Source of the DNA: Hydrogenophilus sp.
GTDB taxonomy: Bacteria > Pseudomonadota > Gammaproteobacteria > Burkholderiales > Thiobacillaceae
Assembly: GCA_020692235.1 (NCBI GenBank)
Contig: JAIMKU010000010.1
Coordinates: forward strand, 11,872 to 48,467
Reading direction: 5' to 3'
Length of the DNA: 36,596 nucleotides
This document shows positions 19,309 to 26,863 of the stretch, piece after piece. Numbering within the stretch: the first letter of the stretch is position 1; each line of letters opens with the position of its first letter. Below the pieces are notes generated by a model, which saw only the letters and a list, made by a program, of their open reading frames with translations, was not told where the DNA came from and did not search any database. A program made the translations under genes and the position numbers.

Positions 19309-21998
19309 TCAACCGCCAAACCTGGCCGCCAGCCCATCGAGCGTGATGTTCTCGGCGATCTCGTCATGCGGAATCAGCACATAGCGCCACGGCTTGCCGC
19401 CATGACTCGCCGCATGGTCCGAGGCATTCGCGCACCACCTGACGGCGGCCTCTTTCTTGGCGATGACAATTGGGTCTTCCATCTCGGTGCGCTGCTTCGG
19501 TTCCAGCATATAGATCGTGTCGTCGGTCTCGGCCACGAAGTCCGGCTGATATTCTAGTTGCTCCGCTCCGTCCGGATAGTAAATCTGGAACTGGCCCTTG
19601 GCGGGCTTAAACCATTTGCTGGCTTCGCGCTCCAGAATCACCGCCAGCTTGCGTTCCGAATCGGAGTCAAATTTCTGCACCGGATACAGGCATTTCTGGA
19701 AGCCGCCAAACAGGTACTTCGCCATGTTGCTCTTGTCGGCCGGCTCCACCCGGTAGTTGGCGGGCGGCTCCTGTGCCGAATAGGTGTAGGCGCTCTGCTT
19801 CAGCTCGGTAAAGCCCTTACTGACCTTCACCTCGTAGCCGGCCACGTCCACCCAGTAATGCGCCTGCATCTGGGCATGGATGAAGCGGGCGATGTCACGC
19901 TGGTAGCAACGCAGCACCTTGCGGCTGTCCGCCTCGGATAGATAACCCTTGAAATGCCGCACGGTCTGGGCGGCCAGGTCATAGAGCAGATCGGCGTGAT
20001 CGTCGTAGGAAACGTCGTCGAAGTCCACCAGGCCACTGACCACGTAGTCTTCCAGCCGCACTTCGTCGATACCGCCACGGCCCACCGACACCACTTCAAG
20101 CTGGTTCGTGCGCAAGTGCTGTATCCAAAGCTCGTCGGAGACCGCCGGGTATTTCAGCGCGGCCAGGTCGAGCGTGAACGGCTTGAAGCCCGCTTTCACC
20201 TCGCCCTTTGGCACCACCAGGATGCGCGGGATGGCTATGGTCTGCTGGGTCACCAGCTCGACCGTCTTTGCCACCACGGCGGCAAAGTCCGGCTTCTCCG
20301 CCACCCCGTCCAGTTCCAGTTGGGTCGGCTGGTGCTGCGCCTCGACCGCCTTGACGATGGCGGCCTGGATTTCCGGCTTCTTCAGATATTCGATGGTGGG
20401 CAAGGTCTGTGCGGCTGGTTTTCCAGCGTGCGGATGACCTCGTAGGTAATCTGCGCGACCTTCTGCTCCTCCGGCTTGGTAAATACCGGCGCCTGATCCT
20501 GCCCGGCCAGCGTCGTGCTGCCGGTCGCGTGGGCAGGCGTCAAGCCCAGCCGGGTCGCCAGTTGCGATTGCGACACGACCGTGGTCGTCTTCTGCCCCAG
20601 CGCATCGGCATCCAGCACCAGGGTCTGCAAATGGATTGCCGACTCCGGCTGGTTGGCCTCGGCGATGATCTCCTGGAACTTGTCGTGGGCGACGATGTTC
20701 AGCCGATCCACCGCCGTCACGCCGGTACGTTTGCCATAGGGCAGGCGCAGGCCGCGGCCGATGGATTGCTCGATCAGCACCCGGGCATTGGCCGCCCGCA
20801 GCGGCACGATGGTGTAGAGGTTGGTCACGTCCCAGCCTTCTTTCAGCATGTTGACGTGAATCACGATCTCGGTCGGTTCGGAGGTCGCCTCCACCTTGAG
20901 CAGGCGGGCGATCATTTTCTCTTCTTCCGCGCCGGTCTTGCTCGAATCCACCTGGATGACCTTGTCCCGGTAGCGCCCCGCGAAAAAGTTGTCGGATTGG
21001 ATCAACGCCAATAGCTGGCTGGCGTGGCTCGTGTCGCGCGCAATCACCAACACGAAAGGTTTGACGATGGCATTGCCGGTTTCGCGGGCGTAGGTCTCCA
21101 GTTCCATCTTTACGCTCTCGTGCAGGCGCACGCCGTCTTCCAGCTTCAGGCGCTCGATCTCCTCCGCCGACATGCCGGCCGGGTTGAAGTCCTTGCGCGT
21201 CACCACGGCCGGTTCCTTGACGAAGCCATCGGCCATCGCCTGGCCGAGCGGATAATCGACGATCACGTTCTTGAACGGCACCGCGCCGCGCGCCGTCTCG
21301 ACAAATGGTGTGGCGGTCAGCTCCAGGCCAAGGATCGGCCTCAGCTCGTTGATGGCGCGAATGCCCGCGCTGGCCCGGTAGCGGTGCGATTCATCCATCA
21401 GCATCACCAGGTCCGGCAGGCCGGCCAGGTAGTCGAAGTAACTCTCGCCGATGTATTCCGACAGCCGCTTGATACGTGGTGACTTGCCGCCGCGCACCTC
21501 GGAATTGATCTTGGAAATGTTGAAGATGTTGATCCGCACGCCGCCGAAGAGCGTGCCGCTGCGCGGGTCATGCTGATCGTAGTTGTCCCCGGTGATGATC
21601 GACGGCGCGTCGATGGCGAATTCGGCGATGCCCCGGAACACATACTTGGGATGCGTGCGGTCGCTGAAATCGGCGATCAGTTTGTTGTAGATGGTCAGGT
21701 TCGGCGCCAGCACGAAAAAGTTGTCGATGCCGTGCGCCAGGTGCAGATAGCTGATGAAAGCGCCCATCAGCCGCGTCTTGCCGACGCCAGTGGCGAGCGC
21801 GAAGCACAGCGAGGGAAAGTCGCGCTCGAAATCCGTCACCGAGGGGAACTCGCCGCGGATCGCCGCCAGCATGGCCGCGACATCGGCGTTCTTGCCAGGC
21901 GGCGCAATCTCGGTGATGCGGTCAAGGATTTCCAGCGAGCGGCGCTGCGGCGGGCGCAGGCTCAGGCGGTCGGCGATGGCGTTGACGTGGCGGTTCAT
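19309..21998 (-). pseudogene. res: Type III restriction enzyme Res subunit, split by a single frameshift
   Basis: ORF 20382-21998 has helicase motifs ATGVGKT, MDESHRY, LTATP, EQSIGRGLRLP; ORF 19309-20403 has the nuclease-like YQPDFVAETDDTIYMLEPKQR. The two overlap out of frame near 20,415. Confidence 0.88.
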
Positions 21999-22041
21999 CT
22001 TTCAGTATCCCAGCCTTTCAAGAGCTATATATACTTCGTCC

Positions 22042-22227
22042 ATGGGCTCAAAACTGACCTCAGCTAACCCTTATCTGCGCGACCCGAAAGTGCGAGAACG
22101 TACCGTCGTCGCGTCTATCTCCACTTCGTCGGCCATCGAGGTCATACGCGCGCCCTTCAAACAGGCATTGAGCGCCAGCGGCAGCCTGCGCGCTCCCAAA
22201 GCCCGCGCCGCCACGAAGAAGTCCTAG
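22042..22227 (+). CDS. Small conserved-looking hypothetical protein, antiparallel between res and the zeta partner
   Basis: 61 aa MGSKLTSANPYLRDPKVRERTVVASISTSSAIEVIRAPFKQALSASGSLRAPKARAATKKS; protein-like composition, lies in an otherwise noncoding gap. Confidence 0.5.
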   Translation: MGSKLTSANPYLRDPKVRERTVVASISTSSAIEVIRAPFKQALSASGSLRAPKARAATKKS

Positions 22228-22274
22228 CCAGCGAGCGCAGGGTCCGCGCGATCACGGCGCACAAAGCACCAAAT

Positions 22275-22460
22275 TCAACGAACCCCCTCGTTGCGCAGTT
22301 CCTCGGCGGTAATGCGCACCCATTGTTGATTCCTCGCAACGATGATGGCGGTCCCGGTACGAACCGCCTGTGTTCTCGCCTTTTGCGCCGCGCGCCTTAT
22401 CGCCGCGAGCGACCCTTTGAGGTCTTCATCCTTTGCCTTGCCAAGCTCCTGCTGCGTCAT
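22275..22460 (-). CDS. Small putative antitoxin/partner of the zeta-type toxin
   Basis: 61 aa MTQQELGKAKDEDLKGSLAAIRRAAQKARTQAVRTGTAIIVARNQQWVRITAEELRNEGVR; 4-nt overlap with the zeta-type gene. Confidence 0.65.
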   Translation of the reverse strand: MTQQELGKAKDEDLKGSLAAIRRAAQKARTQAVRTGTAIIVARNQQWVRITAEELRNEGVR

Positions 22461-22969
22461 GACCTTTCTCCCCATTCAAGCAAAATCGGTTCACTGCCGG
22501 AATTGTCGTACAACGCCCAGGCATCAACCGCATCACGATACCGATCGTCAAAGTTTCGACGGCCCGATATGAAACGCCGACGGATTATCGCTTCCGGAAC
22601 ATCATGCCCGCCCTGACGTACCCGTTCAGCGACTCGCGCGATGGCCATGTCCGCCGTGGGCAAGCTCAAAAAGAACAGGCTGACGTGGTAACCCAGCGCG
22701 CGCCATTCGCCGATATGGCGCAGATAGTTCAAGCCAGACAGCGTAGTCTCGAACGCGAATGACTCGCGGTGCGCCACGCAAGCCAGAATCTCGCCGATCA
22801 TCAACCGGCCCGCCTTGATGGCCGCTGCTTCGGGTGCGAACGGCGACAAGCCCGCGGCAATCAGATCGGCATTCACGAAGCGCGGACAACCCGCCTCCTT
22901 CGGCAGAAATTCCCCGGCAAAGGTCGTTTTCCCCGCGCCATTCGGGCCGGCGATGATGATCGCTTTCAT
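22457..22969 (-). CDS. Zeta toxin family P-loop kinase-like protein
   Basis: 170 aa; Walker A AGPNGAGKTTFAGEFLP, NADLIAAGLSPF, ESFAFETTLSG. Confidence 0.88.
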   Translation of the reverse strand: MKAIIIAGPNGAGKTTFAGEFLPKEAGCPRFVNADLIAAGLSPFAPEAAAIKAGRLMIGEILACVAHRESFAFETTLSGLNYLRHIGEWRALGYHVSLFFLSLPTADMAIARVAERVRQGGHDVPEAIIRRRFISGRRNFDDRYRDAVDAWALYDNSGSEPILLEWGERS

Positions 22970-24639
22970 TGCGCGTCCCCCTCGCCGAACAGCCCCTGCT
23001 GGCCGGGCATCGTTCTTCTCTCGCCCCTTTGCGGGAGAGTGGCCGGGGGAGAGGGCGGCTCCTTGGGCAGGTTTTCCACCTGCAAGGAATAATCGTCATG
23101 CCCCCACTCGCAGCGACTGAGGACTTGTTTGGGAATCTTCTTTACCGTCAGATTGGGGTAGGCATCGGCCTTGGCACGGAAGGCGGTGCACAGCACCAGC
23201 AGCGACCGCTCCGGCCCCACCTCGTCGGCGAGTTGCTGCAACTGTTCGTGGGTCAGGCTGGCGGTGGTCACATAGACGAAATCGCGCTCGGTGGAATGGC
23301 CGTGCTGCCAATACACCGCGTCGGACGGCGCATAGCTGAAGCCCTCCAACTTGCACAGCGCCTCGGCCAGCATCGCGGCGTTGTAGTCGTGATGGATGAC
23401 CCAGTTGCCCCACTTGTCCTTTTCCAGCAGCGAGGGCGCCAGACGGTAGTAACGGAAGCCGCCGCCGCCGCGCCAGTTCACCGCCTTGCTAATGCCGCCT
23501 GGGTCCGCGCCGTCGATGACCTTTTGCAGGCGCGGGATGATGTGGGTATGGCAATGCTCGCCCAGCTCGACCATGATCCAGCGCCGGCCCATTTTGTGGG
23601 CGACCGCACCTGTGGTGCCGGAGCCGGCGAAGGAATCAAGGACTAGGTCGCCGGGGTTGGTGGCTAGTTCAAGGATGCGTTGCAAAAGCTTTTCGGGTTT
23701 TGGCGTATCAAAAGATTTTTCACCATCAAACACCCCTTTGAGCTCAGCGCTCGCATTTCTCGTACTGCCCGCGAAATCATAAGGCCACCATGTTTGATTC
23801 ACGACCCCTTCCTTAACCTCCGACAGATACTTTTTTTCCATTGGGAATTCAGAATCGCCATCCTTTCCCCAATAGATTCTGCCCTCAGACTCAAGCTGCT
23901 TCAGCTTGTCCGGTGGCCTCCGCCAGCTACTTCCTTTTGGAGGCAATACTTCTCGCCCTGCCTTGTTTCGCAGCGGGTAGTAGTCACGATCACGATGCTC
24001 TGCACGAGTCAGAGGAGTGCCAAGCCAAGGTCCGTTTGGATCGTTATCAGGGTTCTTGTAGGTGGCAATCTGTTTTTTGCTTCGCCTCAACAAATTTGGA
24101 CAAAAAACCTCTGATTTTCGGTATGCCAATATGTGATTGTGTGTCTGTGCGAGACCGGTACTGTTATTCCCCGGCGTGTCCTTGGACTGCCACACAAGAT
24201 TCGCCAAGAATTCGCGTCGCCCAAACACCTCATCGCACAACACCTTGAGGTAATGCGCCTCGTTGTCGTCGATGGTGATCCATAACGAACCATCCTCCGA
24301 AAGCAGCCGGGGGATGATCTCCAGCCGGTCGCGCATCAGCGACAGCCAGATGGAATGCTCCACCCCGTCGTCGTAATGGGTGAAGGCGCTGCCGGTGTTG
24401 TACGGCGGGTCGATGAACACGCATTTCACCTTGCCGGAAAACTCCCCCTCCAGCGCCTTCAGCGCCAGCAGGTTGTCGCCGAAGATAAGCCGGTTGTCGA
24501 ACAAGTCGGCGCTGGCGACACGGCACTTGGCGTGATAACTCCGCGCCGGGTCTTCCAGCAAAATGCGCGGCTCCAGCCGCGGCCGGTTCTCCTTGCCGAT
24601 CCAGGTGAGTTCGAGTTTTTGTTCGCGTCCCACGCTCAT
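22966..24639 (-). CDS. mod: Type III (beta-class) DNA adenine methyltransferase Mod
   Basis: Start at MSVGREQKLELTWIGKENRPRLEPRIL; DPPYNTGSAFTHYDDGVEHSIWLSLMRDRL, then DSFAGSGTTGAVAHKM; motif order is beta-class. Confidence 0.92.
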   Translation of the reverse strand: MSVGREQKLELTWIGKENRPRLEPRILLEDPARSYHAKCRVASADLFDNRLIFGDNLLALKALEGEFSGKVKCVFIDPPYNTGSAFTHYDDGVEHSIWLSLMRDRLEIIPRLLSEDGSLWITIDDNEAHYLKVLCDEVFGRREFLANLVWQSKDTPGNNSTGLAQTHNHILAYRKSEVFCPNLLRRSKKQIATYKNPDNDPNGPWLGTPLTRAEHRDRDYYPLRNKAGREVLPPKGSSWRRPPDKLKQLESEGRIYWGKDGDSEFPMEKKYLSEVKEGVVNQTWWPYDFAGSTRNASAELKGVFDGEKSFDTPKPEKLLQRILELATNPGDLVLDSFAGSGTTGAVAHKMGRRWIMVELGEHCHTHIIPRLQKVIDGADPGGISKAVNWRGGGGFRYYRLAPSLLEKDKWGNWVIHHDYNAAMLAEALCKLEGFSYAPSDAVYWQHGHSTERDFVYVTTASLTHEQLQQLADEVGPERSLLVLCTAFRAKADAYPNLTVKKIPKQVLSRCEWGHDDYSLQVENLPKEPPSPPATLPQRGERRTMPGQQGLFGEGDAQ

Positions 24640-24691
24640 TGGCGCGCCTTTTCCAAAGCGATCTTCGATATTTTCATTTGATTGCCTCAGC

Positions 24692-25972
24692 TCACTCGGT
24701 GCTTCGAGCTTCCAGAGCGGGAAATTCCAGCCCCTCAATCTCCTGCAACGACTTCCCCGCAATTCCCTGCAAGTCGCCGTACATCCCCACGGTCGCGCCC
24801 ATCACGCGCTCGATCTGCTCCTCGCGCTTGGCCCATTGTTTCATGATCGCCTTGCGCTCCTTGTCGAGGTCTTCCTGCATGGACGAGAACGCCTCGACGA
24901 TGGCTTCGACGCGCTGGCGGAAGCGCGGGCCGGTGAGGTATTGGTAGACCATTTCGGTCTTGGTCTGCTGACCTTCGGAGACCTGCCGCGCCATGCTCAC
25001 CTGAATCAGCATGTGGCGCAGGATGGTGGCGACCGGCAGGGCGGCACGCGGGTGGGTCACCCATACGCCATCGACGACCTCGAAGGTCTCGACACCCTTG
25101 GGCAAGGCCTGGCTGACCAGGATGGAAACCTCGGCCTTGGCGCTGCGCTGGTCGTCGCGCAGCTTGGCGAGCCAGGCGTCGCTCCAGTTCTTGGTGCGCT
25201 TGAATTCCCACAGCATCGTGCCGGCGGGCTGGCCGCCCTGGCTGACCACCCGGTGCAGCACGTCGCCGCCGAATTCGCCCTTGGGCACGGGCTCGATGGT
25301 GTCGAAAGGGAACTTGGCGCGCAGCAGGGCTTCCAGTTCCAGTTCCTGCACCTCGCCCTGCAATTGCTGCGAGCCCTGCTCGGCCCGGCGCTTGAGGTCT
25401 TCAATCTGCTTCTGCATCGCGGCGATGGTCTGCTCCTTCTCCATCACCTTGAGCTTCTGTTCGTCCTCGGCCTCACGCTTGGCCTGGCTGCGGATTTCGC
25501 TGAGGCCGTCCTGCACCCGCTTTTCGACGGTGAGTTCGAGTTCGCGTCTGGCGTCGTCGAGTTCGCGCTGCTTTCTGATGAGCTCGGCCTGCGCCTTCTG
25601 CGCCTCGGCCAGCTTTTCGTCGCGGGCCTTGAGCACTTCCTGGAGTTCGGCGAGTTCGCGCGCCTTGTCTTCGAGTTCGGTCGCGGCGGCCTGCCTGGCC
25701 TTCTTCGCCTCCTCGGCGACGACGCGGGCGCGCTCGGCCTTCAGTTGCGTCGCCACTTGTTCGGTGACTTGTTCATCCAGCGTGCGCTTGGCCTCGGCGA
25801 TCTGCTTTTCCTTGTCGCGGAGGCCCTGCTCGCGTTTGGCAATGTCCTCGTCCTTCTGCGCGAGCTGGCGCTCGAACTGCTGGCGGGTCGCCGCGATCAG
25901 CGGCGCGGCAAGGGATTCAGTCAGCCGGATTTCGCTCTTGCAATTGGGGCAGGTGATCGTCGGTTCGGTCAT
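24692..25972 (-). CDS. DUF2130 domain-containing coiled-coil protein
   Basis: 426 aa; N-terminal zinc-ribbon-like ITCPNCKSEIRLTESL, long coiled coil, then GGDVLHRVVSQGGQPAGTMLWEFKRTKNWSDAWLAKLRDDQRSAKAEVSILVSQALP. Confidence 0.88.
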   Translation of the reverse strand: MTEPTITCPNCKSEIRLTESLAAPLIAATRQQFERQLAQKDEDIAKREQGLRDKEKQIAEAKRTLDEQVTEQVATQLKAERARVVAEEAKKARQAAATELEDKARELAELQEVLKARDEKLAEAQKAQAELIRKQRELDDARRELELTVEKRVQDGLSEIRSQAKREAEDEQKLKVMEKEQTIAAMQKQIEDLKRRAEQGSQQLQGEVQELELEALLRAKFPFDTIEPVPKGEFGGDVLHRVVSQGGQPAGTMLWEFKRTKNWSDAWLAKLRDDQRSAKAEVSILVSQALPKGVETFEVVDGVWVTHPRAALPVATILRHMLIQVSMARQVSEGQQTKTEMVYQYLTGPRFRQRVEAIVEAFSSMQEDLDKERKAIMKQWAKREEQIERVMGATVGMYGDLQGIAGKSLQEIEGLEFPALEARSTE

Positions 25973-26322
25973 ATCGACCGATCCCTGAGTTCTTGCAGTT
26001 GGGGCAACAGGGCGGGAATGTCGCTTTGGACAATGCTCCACAGGGTGTCGTTGTCGATCCCCAGGTAGCCGTGGATCAGCCGGTTGCGCGTGGCGATGAT
26101 GAGCCGCCATTGCAGTTTGGGATTGGCGGTACGCACGGCGTCCGGGATGCGCGTTGCGGCCTCGCCAATCAGCTCGAGGTTGCGCACGGTGGCGTCGTAA
26201 TTCAAGTCGCTGGCGACAAATGCGGCCTGGTCGAGTCCGTCGGTATAGGCGATGACCTTTTCGGCAAAACCGATCATGTCTTCGAGATAGAAGCGCCATT
26301 TGCGAGCCGCGTTGTTAGACAT
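25969..26322 (-). CDS. HepT-like (DUF86) ribonuclease toxin
   Basis: MSNNAARKWRFYLEDMIGFAEKVIAYT...NLELIGEAATRIP...RNRLIHGYLGIDNDTLW; RX4H-type motif. Confidence 0.9.
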   Translation of the reverse strand: MSNNAARKWRFYLEDMIGFAEKVIAYTDGLDQAAFVASDLNYDATVRNLELIGEAATRIPDAVRTANPKLQWRLIIATRNRLIHGYLGIDNDTLWSIVQSDIPALLPQLQELRDRSI

Positions 26323-26617
26323 GAACGGCCTCCCTTTCCACAAATGGACGAAGCTCGGGACGCAAGGCTTTCTCAGTCACGAGATCAATCGGCTGGCCGA
26401 ACAGGTCTTCAAGGTAGAACTGAACGCCGAAGTAGCGCGCGGATGTCGCAGGGCCATCAAAAGCGACCAGAACATCGACGTCGCTATCGCTTCGCGCCGT
26501 GTCGCGTGCTGTCGATCCGAACAAGGCAATAGACGTTACCCCGTAACGCGTCGACAGTTCCGGTTTGCTGCGGGCGAGCAGTTCGATGGCGCGTGAGCGG
26601 TTCATTCTTGTCTCCAT
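26315..26617 (-). CDS. MntA-like nucleotidyltransferase antitoxin
   Basis: GVTSIALFGSTARDTARSDSDVDVLVAF (GSxxR...SDxDV); overlaps the HepT-like start by 8 nt. Confidence 0.9.
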   Translation of the reverse strand: METRMNRSRAIELLARSKPELSTRYGVTSIALFGSTARDTARSDSDVDVLVAFDGPATSARYFGVQFYLEDLFGQPIDLVTEKALRPELRPFVEREAVHV

Positions 26618-26863
26618 GCAAATATTTGGGTGGACGGCCTGTCATCAGCACTTTGTAATTATGGCGAATTTGCCCCGATTAAAATCGGGGCTATCGAAAA
26701 AGTCGGCGCTGGCGACACGGCGATTTGCAAATGACGTTACAAGTGTAGCCGGAGGAAGTCTGACCAAGCGAGCCAATCAGGCAAGAAACCAACGCAGCAC
26801 AATAATAAGCGGTTGCATGGCAGTGGTCTGGTTCGGTTTGCCAATGGCCGGATCGGCGGAGTG

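Follow-up and report, generated by a model that had tools for sequence, protein, structure and literature searches.

A type III restriction-modification locus of Hydrogenophilus sp. as a probable platform for exchangeable toxin-antitoxin cargo

Gene content of the locus

Here we analyse a reverse-strand gene cluster on a 36,596-nucleotide (nt) stretch of DNA from Hydrogenophilus sp. (contig JAIMKU010000010.1, assembly GCA_020692235.1; the whole stretch is hereafter called the window). The cluster comprises mod and res, the genes of a type III restriction-modification (R-M) enzyme, together with the toxin-antitoxin (TA) pair mntA-hepT, a gene for a DUF2130 protein and a zeta-type kinase gene with a small partner (Table 1). 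An earlier note, made from the letters alone, had put these seven genes forward as an undescribed multi-component defence system. Comparison with related sequences points elsewhere: the seven genes are not one conserved system, and most likely represent one momentary state of a type III R-M platform built from modules.

Much of the layout described in that note was confirmed. All family assignments were recovered, as Pfam NTP_transf_2, HepT-like, DUF2130, N6_N4_Mtase, Zeta_toxin and ResIII and as PADLOC MTase_III and REase_III. The close packing of the genes also held: mntA and hepT overlap by 8 nt, read from the stop of the one and the ATG of the other, hepT and DUF2130 share an ATGA of 4 nt, DUF2130 lies 52 nt from mod, and 4-nt overlaps join mod to zeta and zeta to its partner. 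The ATGA overlaps, which link the cassettes to each other and to mod, suggest translational coupling. The mntA frame is indeed open to 26617, as had been given, but the gene probably starts at 26605, with GGAG 8 nt upstream and the same start in two relatives (L195 and L196). The 276 nt from the partner stop to the res ATG was correct as a distance; it is not an empty gap, since an open reading frame (ORF) of 61 amino acids (aa) lies inside it on the forward strand. Nor is res a single gene, being split into two ORFs in different frames. A scan for promoters and terminators gave matches no more numerous than those in shuffled sequence.

Table 1. Features of the mod-res cluster, in window coordinates
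Feature	Position	Strand	Evidence
mntA, minimal nucleotidyltransferase antitoxin	26315..26605	-	Pfam NTP_transf_2 4.7e-17; PADLOC PDC-S09; GSX10DXD motif; dN/dS about 0.09-0.11
hepT, HEPN RNase toxin	25969..26322	-	Pfam HepT-like 3.3e-25; RX4HXY motif RNRLIHGY
DUF2130 protein: CPNC zinc-ribbon-like start, long coiled coil, predicted PD-(D/E)XK domain	24692..25972	-	Pfam DUF2130 3.1e-81
DUF2130-mod spacer, 52 nt, presumed deletion scar	24640..24691	-	relatives carry ABC-type ATPase or TA genes there
mod, type III beta-class adenine methyltransferase	22966..24639	-	MTase_III PDLC03636 6.6e-213; Pfam N6_N4_Mtase
zeta-type P-loop kinase toxin, 170 aa, slot B cargo	22457..22969	-	Pfam Zeta_toxin 7.1e-7; GPNGAGKT Walker A
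small zeta partner, 61 aa, putative antitoxin	22275..22460	-	trails zeta in 8 slot-B loci and pSYSG
orphan Fic-antitoxin-like gene, 61 aa	22042..22227	+	homologues opposite Fic in slot B of L036, L059 and L104
res 5' part (ResN), helicase/ATPase half, 538 aa	20382..21998	-	Pfam ResIII 2.6e-19; REase_III PDLC03648; GVGKT, DESH
2-nt (CA) insertion breaking the res frame	20404..20420, approximate (near 20410)	-	alignment to 11 relatives including congener locus L223
res 3' part (ResC), endonuclease half, 364 aa	19309..20403	-	REase_III PDLC03648 positions 522-863; PD...EPK motif
mod 5'-end fossil, codons about 39-51, upstream of mntA	26689..26728	-	85% identical to 24492-24531

In the Mod protein, DPPY at residue 77 (motif IV) precedes the FxGxG motif (FAGSG) at 337 (motif I), the order of a beta-class N6-adenine methyltransferase. 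The gene is a mosaic: its target-recognition stretch (23800-24100) best matches L033, L031 and L032, while both flanks match L036, L037 and L065, and by these matches the target-recognition region is from a different lineage than the remainder of the gene. Near the 3' end of mod, at about 22995-23050, a palindromic stretch (CTCTCCCCCGGCCACTCTCCCGCAAAGGGGCGAG) resembling repetitive extragenic palindromes is read through as the C-terminus of the protein. No second copy of this element was found in this genome; an insertion resembling it sits in a mod fossil of L053.

The two res ORFs cover positions 2-401 (ResN) and 522-863 (ResC) of the same family profile. GVGKT and DESH in ResN and PDFVAETDDTIYMLEPK in ResC supply the SF2 helicase and C-terminal PD-ExK features, on two ORFs, and the window thus encodes no single intact Res polypeptide of the type III kind. 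Relative to all 11 relatives displayed for that stretch, one of which is present as two overlapping loci, the window carries the 2-nt insertion, and the Res of a congener (genome G004) at the same genomic site is intact at 895 aa. The ResC frame opens with TTG and has no clear ribosome-binding site, and no repeat tract for phase variation was seen at the frameshift. The two halves have the same dN/dS, about 0.10, so the break is either recent or an assembly error. A genuine two-subunit Res was considered and rejected, the res genes of L042, L059 and L052 also being broken, at different positions (in L052 at a run of N). The frameshift makes it uncertain whether the window copy still restricts; with the DrmD-like helicase and the ATPase partner of DUF2130 (both described below) also absent, this copy looks rearranged and possibly inactive in restriction.

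Cargo turnover in related loci

Relatives of Mod were taken from a collection of genome contigs (80 loci) and from whole-genome loci, making 89 related loci with the window included; their neighbouring genes were clustered and then named with Pfam and PADLOC. The common architecture is a DrmD-like SNF2 helicase, a variable slot A, Mod, a variable slot B and Res, in which only mod and res are constant. The helicase occurs in 52 of the 89 loci (PDLC02619, 679 bits in L047) and is absent from the window's genome. Membership of the DISARM family was rejected, as the DrmD-like helicase is found only in the relatives and no drmA, drmB or drmC was recognised among the neighbours named. Upstream of mod, slot A may hold AIPR/AbiU, GmrSD, AAA_13, TrlF-like and OLD-like ATPases, DUF5131 with TcmP, a subtilase with AAA, AlbA_2, MntA-HepT or DUF2130. 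The second slot, B, separates mod from res. It was scored in 84 loci and is empty in 27, where mod and res often overlap by 4 nt. The filled slots carry about 10 cargo types, namely DUF1016 (18 loci), RhuM (9), DUF1016 with RhuM (2), zeta with its partner (8), Fic (5, with a convergent small antitoxin gene recognised in 3), MntA-HepT (4), GxxExxY (3), AlbA_2 (3) and others (5).

This cargo varies between relatives, almost at random. On a Res tree of 76 rows the slot B state changes at least 42 times, against a mean of 47 and a minimum of 41 in 100 label shuffles, and slot B cargo is therefore almost independent of Res ancestry. Among pairs of loci whose Res are at least 85% identical, 49 of 63 differ in slot B, and the nearest Res relatives of the window hold Fic, DUF1016 or GxxExxY where the window holds zeta. 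The window's gene set was found in none of the other 88 loci. The idea of an undescribed seven-component system is thus not upheld. The earlier note had counted it as a refutation if homologous mod loci rarely carried these neighbours: this is partly the case, as mod neighbours change between close relatives, yet TA pairs recur. The cargo is under purifying selection, with dN/dS about 0.1-0.2 for DUF2130, zeta and MntA-HepT, as for both res halves, and no other stops; the TA motifs are intact.

The same turnover can be seen at a single chromosomal site. The window locus has ald on one side and rnfA on the other. Four other congeners have nothing but 115 to 500 nt separating these two genes. 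Congener G004 has an island at this place, on two contigs. The left one reads ald, a BRO/DinD-like gene, DUF2130 (90%), a Gp49-like gene with a helix-turn-helix gene, an M78 peptidase gene with DUF4411 and the N-terminus of Mod at the contig end; the right one reads the C-terminus of RhuM, Res and rnfA. The backbone is therefore common to the two genomes and the TA cargo different. The G004 island ends on either side in the 14 bases CCGTCAATAAGGAC (left end of L199, right end of L223), a direct repeat that suggests a target-site duplication or an att-like site. Elsewhere, near the end of the window, lie eight CRISPR-DR9 direct repeats (Rfam RF01322; 36018-36557, reverse strand).

Turning to the cargo itself, the window zeta scores weakly against Pfam Zeta_toxin (29.3 bits, cut-off 22.3), has its Walker A motif, and is followed by a conserved neighbour as putative antitoxin. 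It is 61-75% identical to the zeta of six other R-M loci. Across 229 genomes of the class, the nine closest zeta genes (that of the window among them) divide into five beside a type III mod (in one case a mod relic), two in type I R-M operons and two elsewhere. The zeta-partner pair of the type III slot is thus also present in type I R-M operons. On the Synechocystis plasmid pSYSG (L251) the order is hsdS, an MNT gene, zeta, the small partner, DUF4433 and a macro-domain gene, with several TA-like pairs stacked behind the type I specificity gene. The partner matched no Pfam family, and its AlphaFold (AF2) model consists of a long helix and a beta hairpin. A role as zeta antitoxin is plausible from its position; that it is strictly so is less certain, because it also trails GxxExxY (L031, L065) and DUF1016 (L195) genes.

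The adjacent mntA and hepT carry both motifs of a HepT/MntA system, GSX10DXD and RX4HXY. Their NCBIfam scores (45.6 and 32.1 bits) fall below the equivalog cut-off of 60, and the pair is therefore best regarded as a divergent member. Among the scored loci, MntA-HepT occupies slot B in four and HepT lies in slot A of four. The order MntA-HepT-DUF2130 recurs collinearly in L164, and L048 and L165 retain traces of the same arrangement; MntA-HepT is also found outside such loci.

DUF2130 is likely a PD-(D/E)XK nuclease, as predicted from its alignment and model. D237, E256 and K258, forming a D...(D/E)XK signature, are invariant in 20 aligned sequences. In the AF2 model (pTM 0.38) an alpha/beta domain comes after a helix some 200 residues long; strands at 238-243 and 249-258 of this domain, which agree with those on which the signature is expected, lead into a helix. 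The top Foldseek matches, none of them below 1e-3, are mostly PD-(D/E)XK proteins (SPARDA nuclease, Bax1, MspJI, McrBC, DdmD, Ecl18kI and EcoRV). In mod loci the gene after DUF2130 is usually an ABC-type ATPase (AAA_13, TrlF-like, OLD-like or AAA_15/21). In the window this ATPase is missing and DUF2130 abuts mod; the corresponding position is taken by an ATPase of some 750 aa in L036, L042 and other loci and by TA genes in L199. DUF2130 also occurs alone, beside housekeeping genes on chromosomes and among plasmid genes, rhizobial plasmids included, and is therefore cargo and not core. We found no function described for it in the papers found to mention DUF2130.

Footprints of exchange and the role of the cargo

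Several gene fossils may be footprints of cargo exchange. The forward-strand ORF between the zeta partner and res is about 90% identical to the small gene opposite Fic in L036. Its homologues in the mod-res slots of L036, L059 and L104 read SSAIEG where the window reads SSAIEV. The ORF is probably what remains, as an antitoxin gene, of a Fic cassette that once occupied the slot. A second fossil, a 40-nt fragment of the mod 5' end, is found some 70-110 nt upstream of mntA, in the same frame as the corresponding mod codons, with a local score of 51 against a shuffle maximum of 28. Fragments of this kind lie upstream of cargo in 9 of the 10 relatives listed with an extra mod piece, and in L196 the fragment stops directly at the mntA start. 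That locus has MntA-HepT on both sides of the same mod, with the mod fragment before the upstream copy. Short 3' remnants of DUF2130 stand ahead of ATPases in L034 and L037 and after HepT in L048. A single precise breakpoint is unsupported, as the ends of the mod fragments range from about codon 30 to 109. Incoming cargo would bring a mod 5' end with it; homologous recombination would insert it at this end, and illegitimate joining at the opposite end.

We propose, with a probability of roughly 0.6, that the type III mod-res locus is a platform with two exchangeable cargo slots whose TA cassettes act as secondary growth-arrest layers. Here slot A holds MntA-HepT and DUF2130, a probable nuclease now without the ABC-type ATPase that usually adjoins it. 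In slot B is the zeta kinase with its small putative antitoxin, beside the relic of the Fic cassette. We infer that each toxin is toxic and is neutralised by its partner. The cassettes would most likely form an abortive second layer, coming into play once restriction fails or expression is disturbed, and they may also stabilise the locus as addiction modules. The suggestion in the earlier note that toxins guard the R-M core survives in this form, given the recurrence of TA pairs in related mod-res loci and the precedents of PrrC in EcoPrrI and of DarTG2 (PMC3506569, PMC12255303, PMC12707154); the composite system built around it does not.

Several points weigh against this proposal. The loci were gathered by Mod similarity and many come from metagenome bins, so the counts above do not amount to an unbiased census. 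The back-up role of the toxins is argued from likeness to PrrC and DarTG2, and the res frameshift could be an assembly error. Moreover, near-random cargo turnover is also compatible with mobile TA genes clustering, for no adaptive reason, where insertions are tolerated. In that account mobile cassettes settle in an R-M locus that can be dispensed with and are kept there by addiction, with no cooperation with the enzyme; the relics of old cassettes, the lives that MntA-HepT and DUF2130 lead elsewhere, the res frameshift and the loss of the helicase all agree with it. However, the cargo is biased to few families and sits at the mod-res junction in frame-coupled overlaps, and of the nine closest zeta genes seven either belong to R-M loci, of two different types, or adjoin a mod relic, a stronger preference than random landing would be expected to produce. 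We consider such passive accumulation possible but less likely.

It is possible, though doubtful, that the window locus is a decaying remnant in which Mod is an orphan methylase and the rest is being lost, a view compatible with our account of how the locus arose. The 2-nt insertion in res, the absence of DrmD from the genome, the deleted ATPase and the mutated motif of the Fic antitoxin speak for decay. However, the insertion may not be real, and the low dN/dS of the res halves and cargo, with no other stops, means that any decay must be recent. Far less probable than either is that the seven genes are one integrated system, with Mod and Res sensing phage and both toxins and DUF2130 as dedicated effectors. 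The single strand, the four overlaps of 4-8 nt and the recurring MntA-HepT-DUF2130 order would fit; the survey strongly disfavours it, the set being absent from the other loci surveyed and the mod-res neighbours varying between close relatives, DUF2130 and zeta occur without mod-res, and here DUF2130 lacks its ATPase and Res is frameshifted.

A stronger version of the platform proposal can be offered only tentatively. The mod-res junction would be a dedicated slot, in which complete TA pairs would replace one another as abortive effectors linked to the R-M complex. Zeta and its partner would be an R-M-sensing module common to types I and III, and exchange would proceed by one-sided recombination through the mod 5' end, leaving fossils. 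If this were true, the generalisation made in 2012 that immunity loci do not encode typical antitoxins (PMC3506569) would fail for this mod-res family. The family offers a natural test set, having one backbone, an empty slot in a third of loci, about ten cargoes and close relatives (Res 85-92% identical) with different cargo. It also yields two candidates lacking in current defence libraries, the zeta-partner pair and DUF2130, the latter a likely nuclease usually found ahead of an ABC-type ATPase.

Comparison with known systems

The individual cassettes resemble described families in part. Like class I HepT/MntA (type VII; PMC7641770), the window pair has both motifs in adjacent genes; unlike it, the pair scores below cut-off and sits in an R-M locus. 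Like members of the epsilon/zeta and PezT family, the zeta protein is a P-loop kinase with Walker A that matches Pfam Zeta_toxin. However, it is only 170 aa long with a weak Pfam score, and its partner is encoded after the toxin and belongs to no Pfam family. PADLOC candidates PDC-S02 (DUF1016), S05 (RhuM), S06 (AAA_13) and S09 (MntA-like) match cargo in the window or its relatives; as far as the work is reported in PMC12255303, these stem from 'guilt by embedding' (Payne et al., preprint), which draws on variable genes embedded in defence loci. In contrast, zeta with its partner and DUF2130 have no PADLOC model of their own.

At the level of the locus, coupling between R-M and suicide genes was proposed by Makarova et al. 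in 2012, who also described how toxins are displaced in loci of types I and III, and posed as an open question whether toxins embedded in R-M loci cooperate with the enzyme or merely accumulate (PMC3506569). In EcoPrrI the gene of the anticodon nuclease PrrC is embedded in a type IC R-M operon and provides a tested back-up when restriction is inhibited (PMC3506569, PMC12707154). The window likewise has toxin genes within an R-M operon. However, EcoPrrI is type I, with a single toxin held latent by the R-M complex and no separate antitoxin, whereas the window locus is type III with complete TA pairs. DarTG2 is such a complete pair; it lies between hsdS and hsdR of a type I locus, where a recombination hotspot has been suggested (PMC12255303), and the window locus shares with it the placement of a TA pair in the junction before the restriction gene. 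The two differ in that the window locus is type III, its pairs are zeta and HEPN/MNT and no regulator was found, where the DarTG2 locus is type I with a dedicated repressor, RptR. In openly accessible papers we found no description of type III mod-res slots that carry complete TA pairs, of a shared zeta-partner module, of this assignment of DUF2130 or of the gene fossils. That toxins are embedded in R-M loci is thus already known from PrrC, DarTG2 and 'guilt by embedding'; what the window adds is a mod-res slot of a type III locus that carries complete TA pairs, the occurrence of zeta and its partner here as in type I R-M, DUF2130 as a likely PD-(D/E)XK nuclease and putative fossils of cargo exchange.

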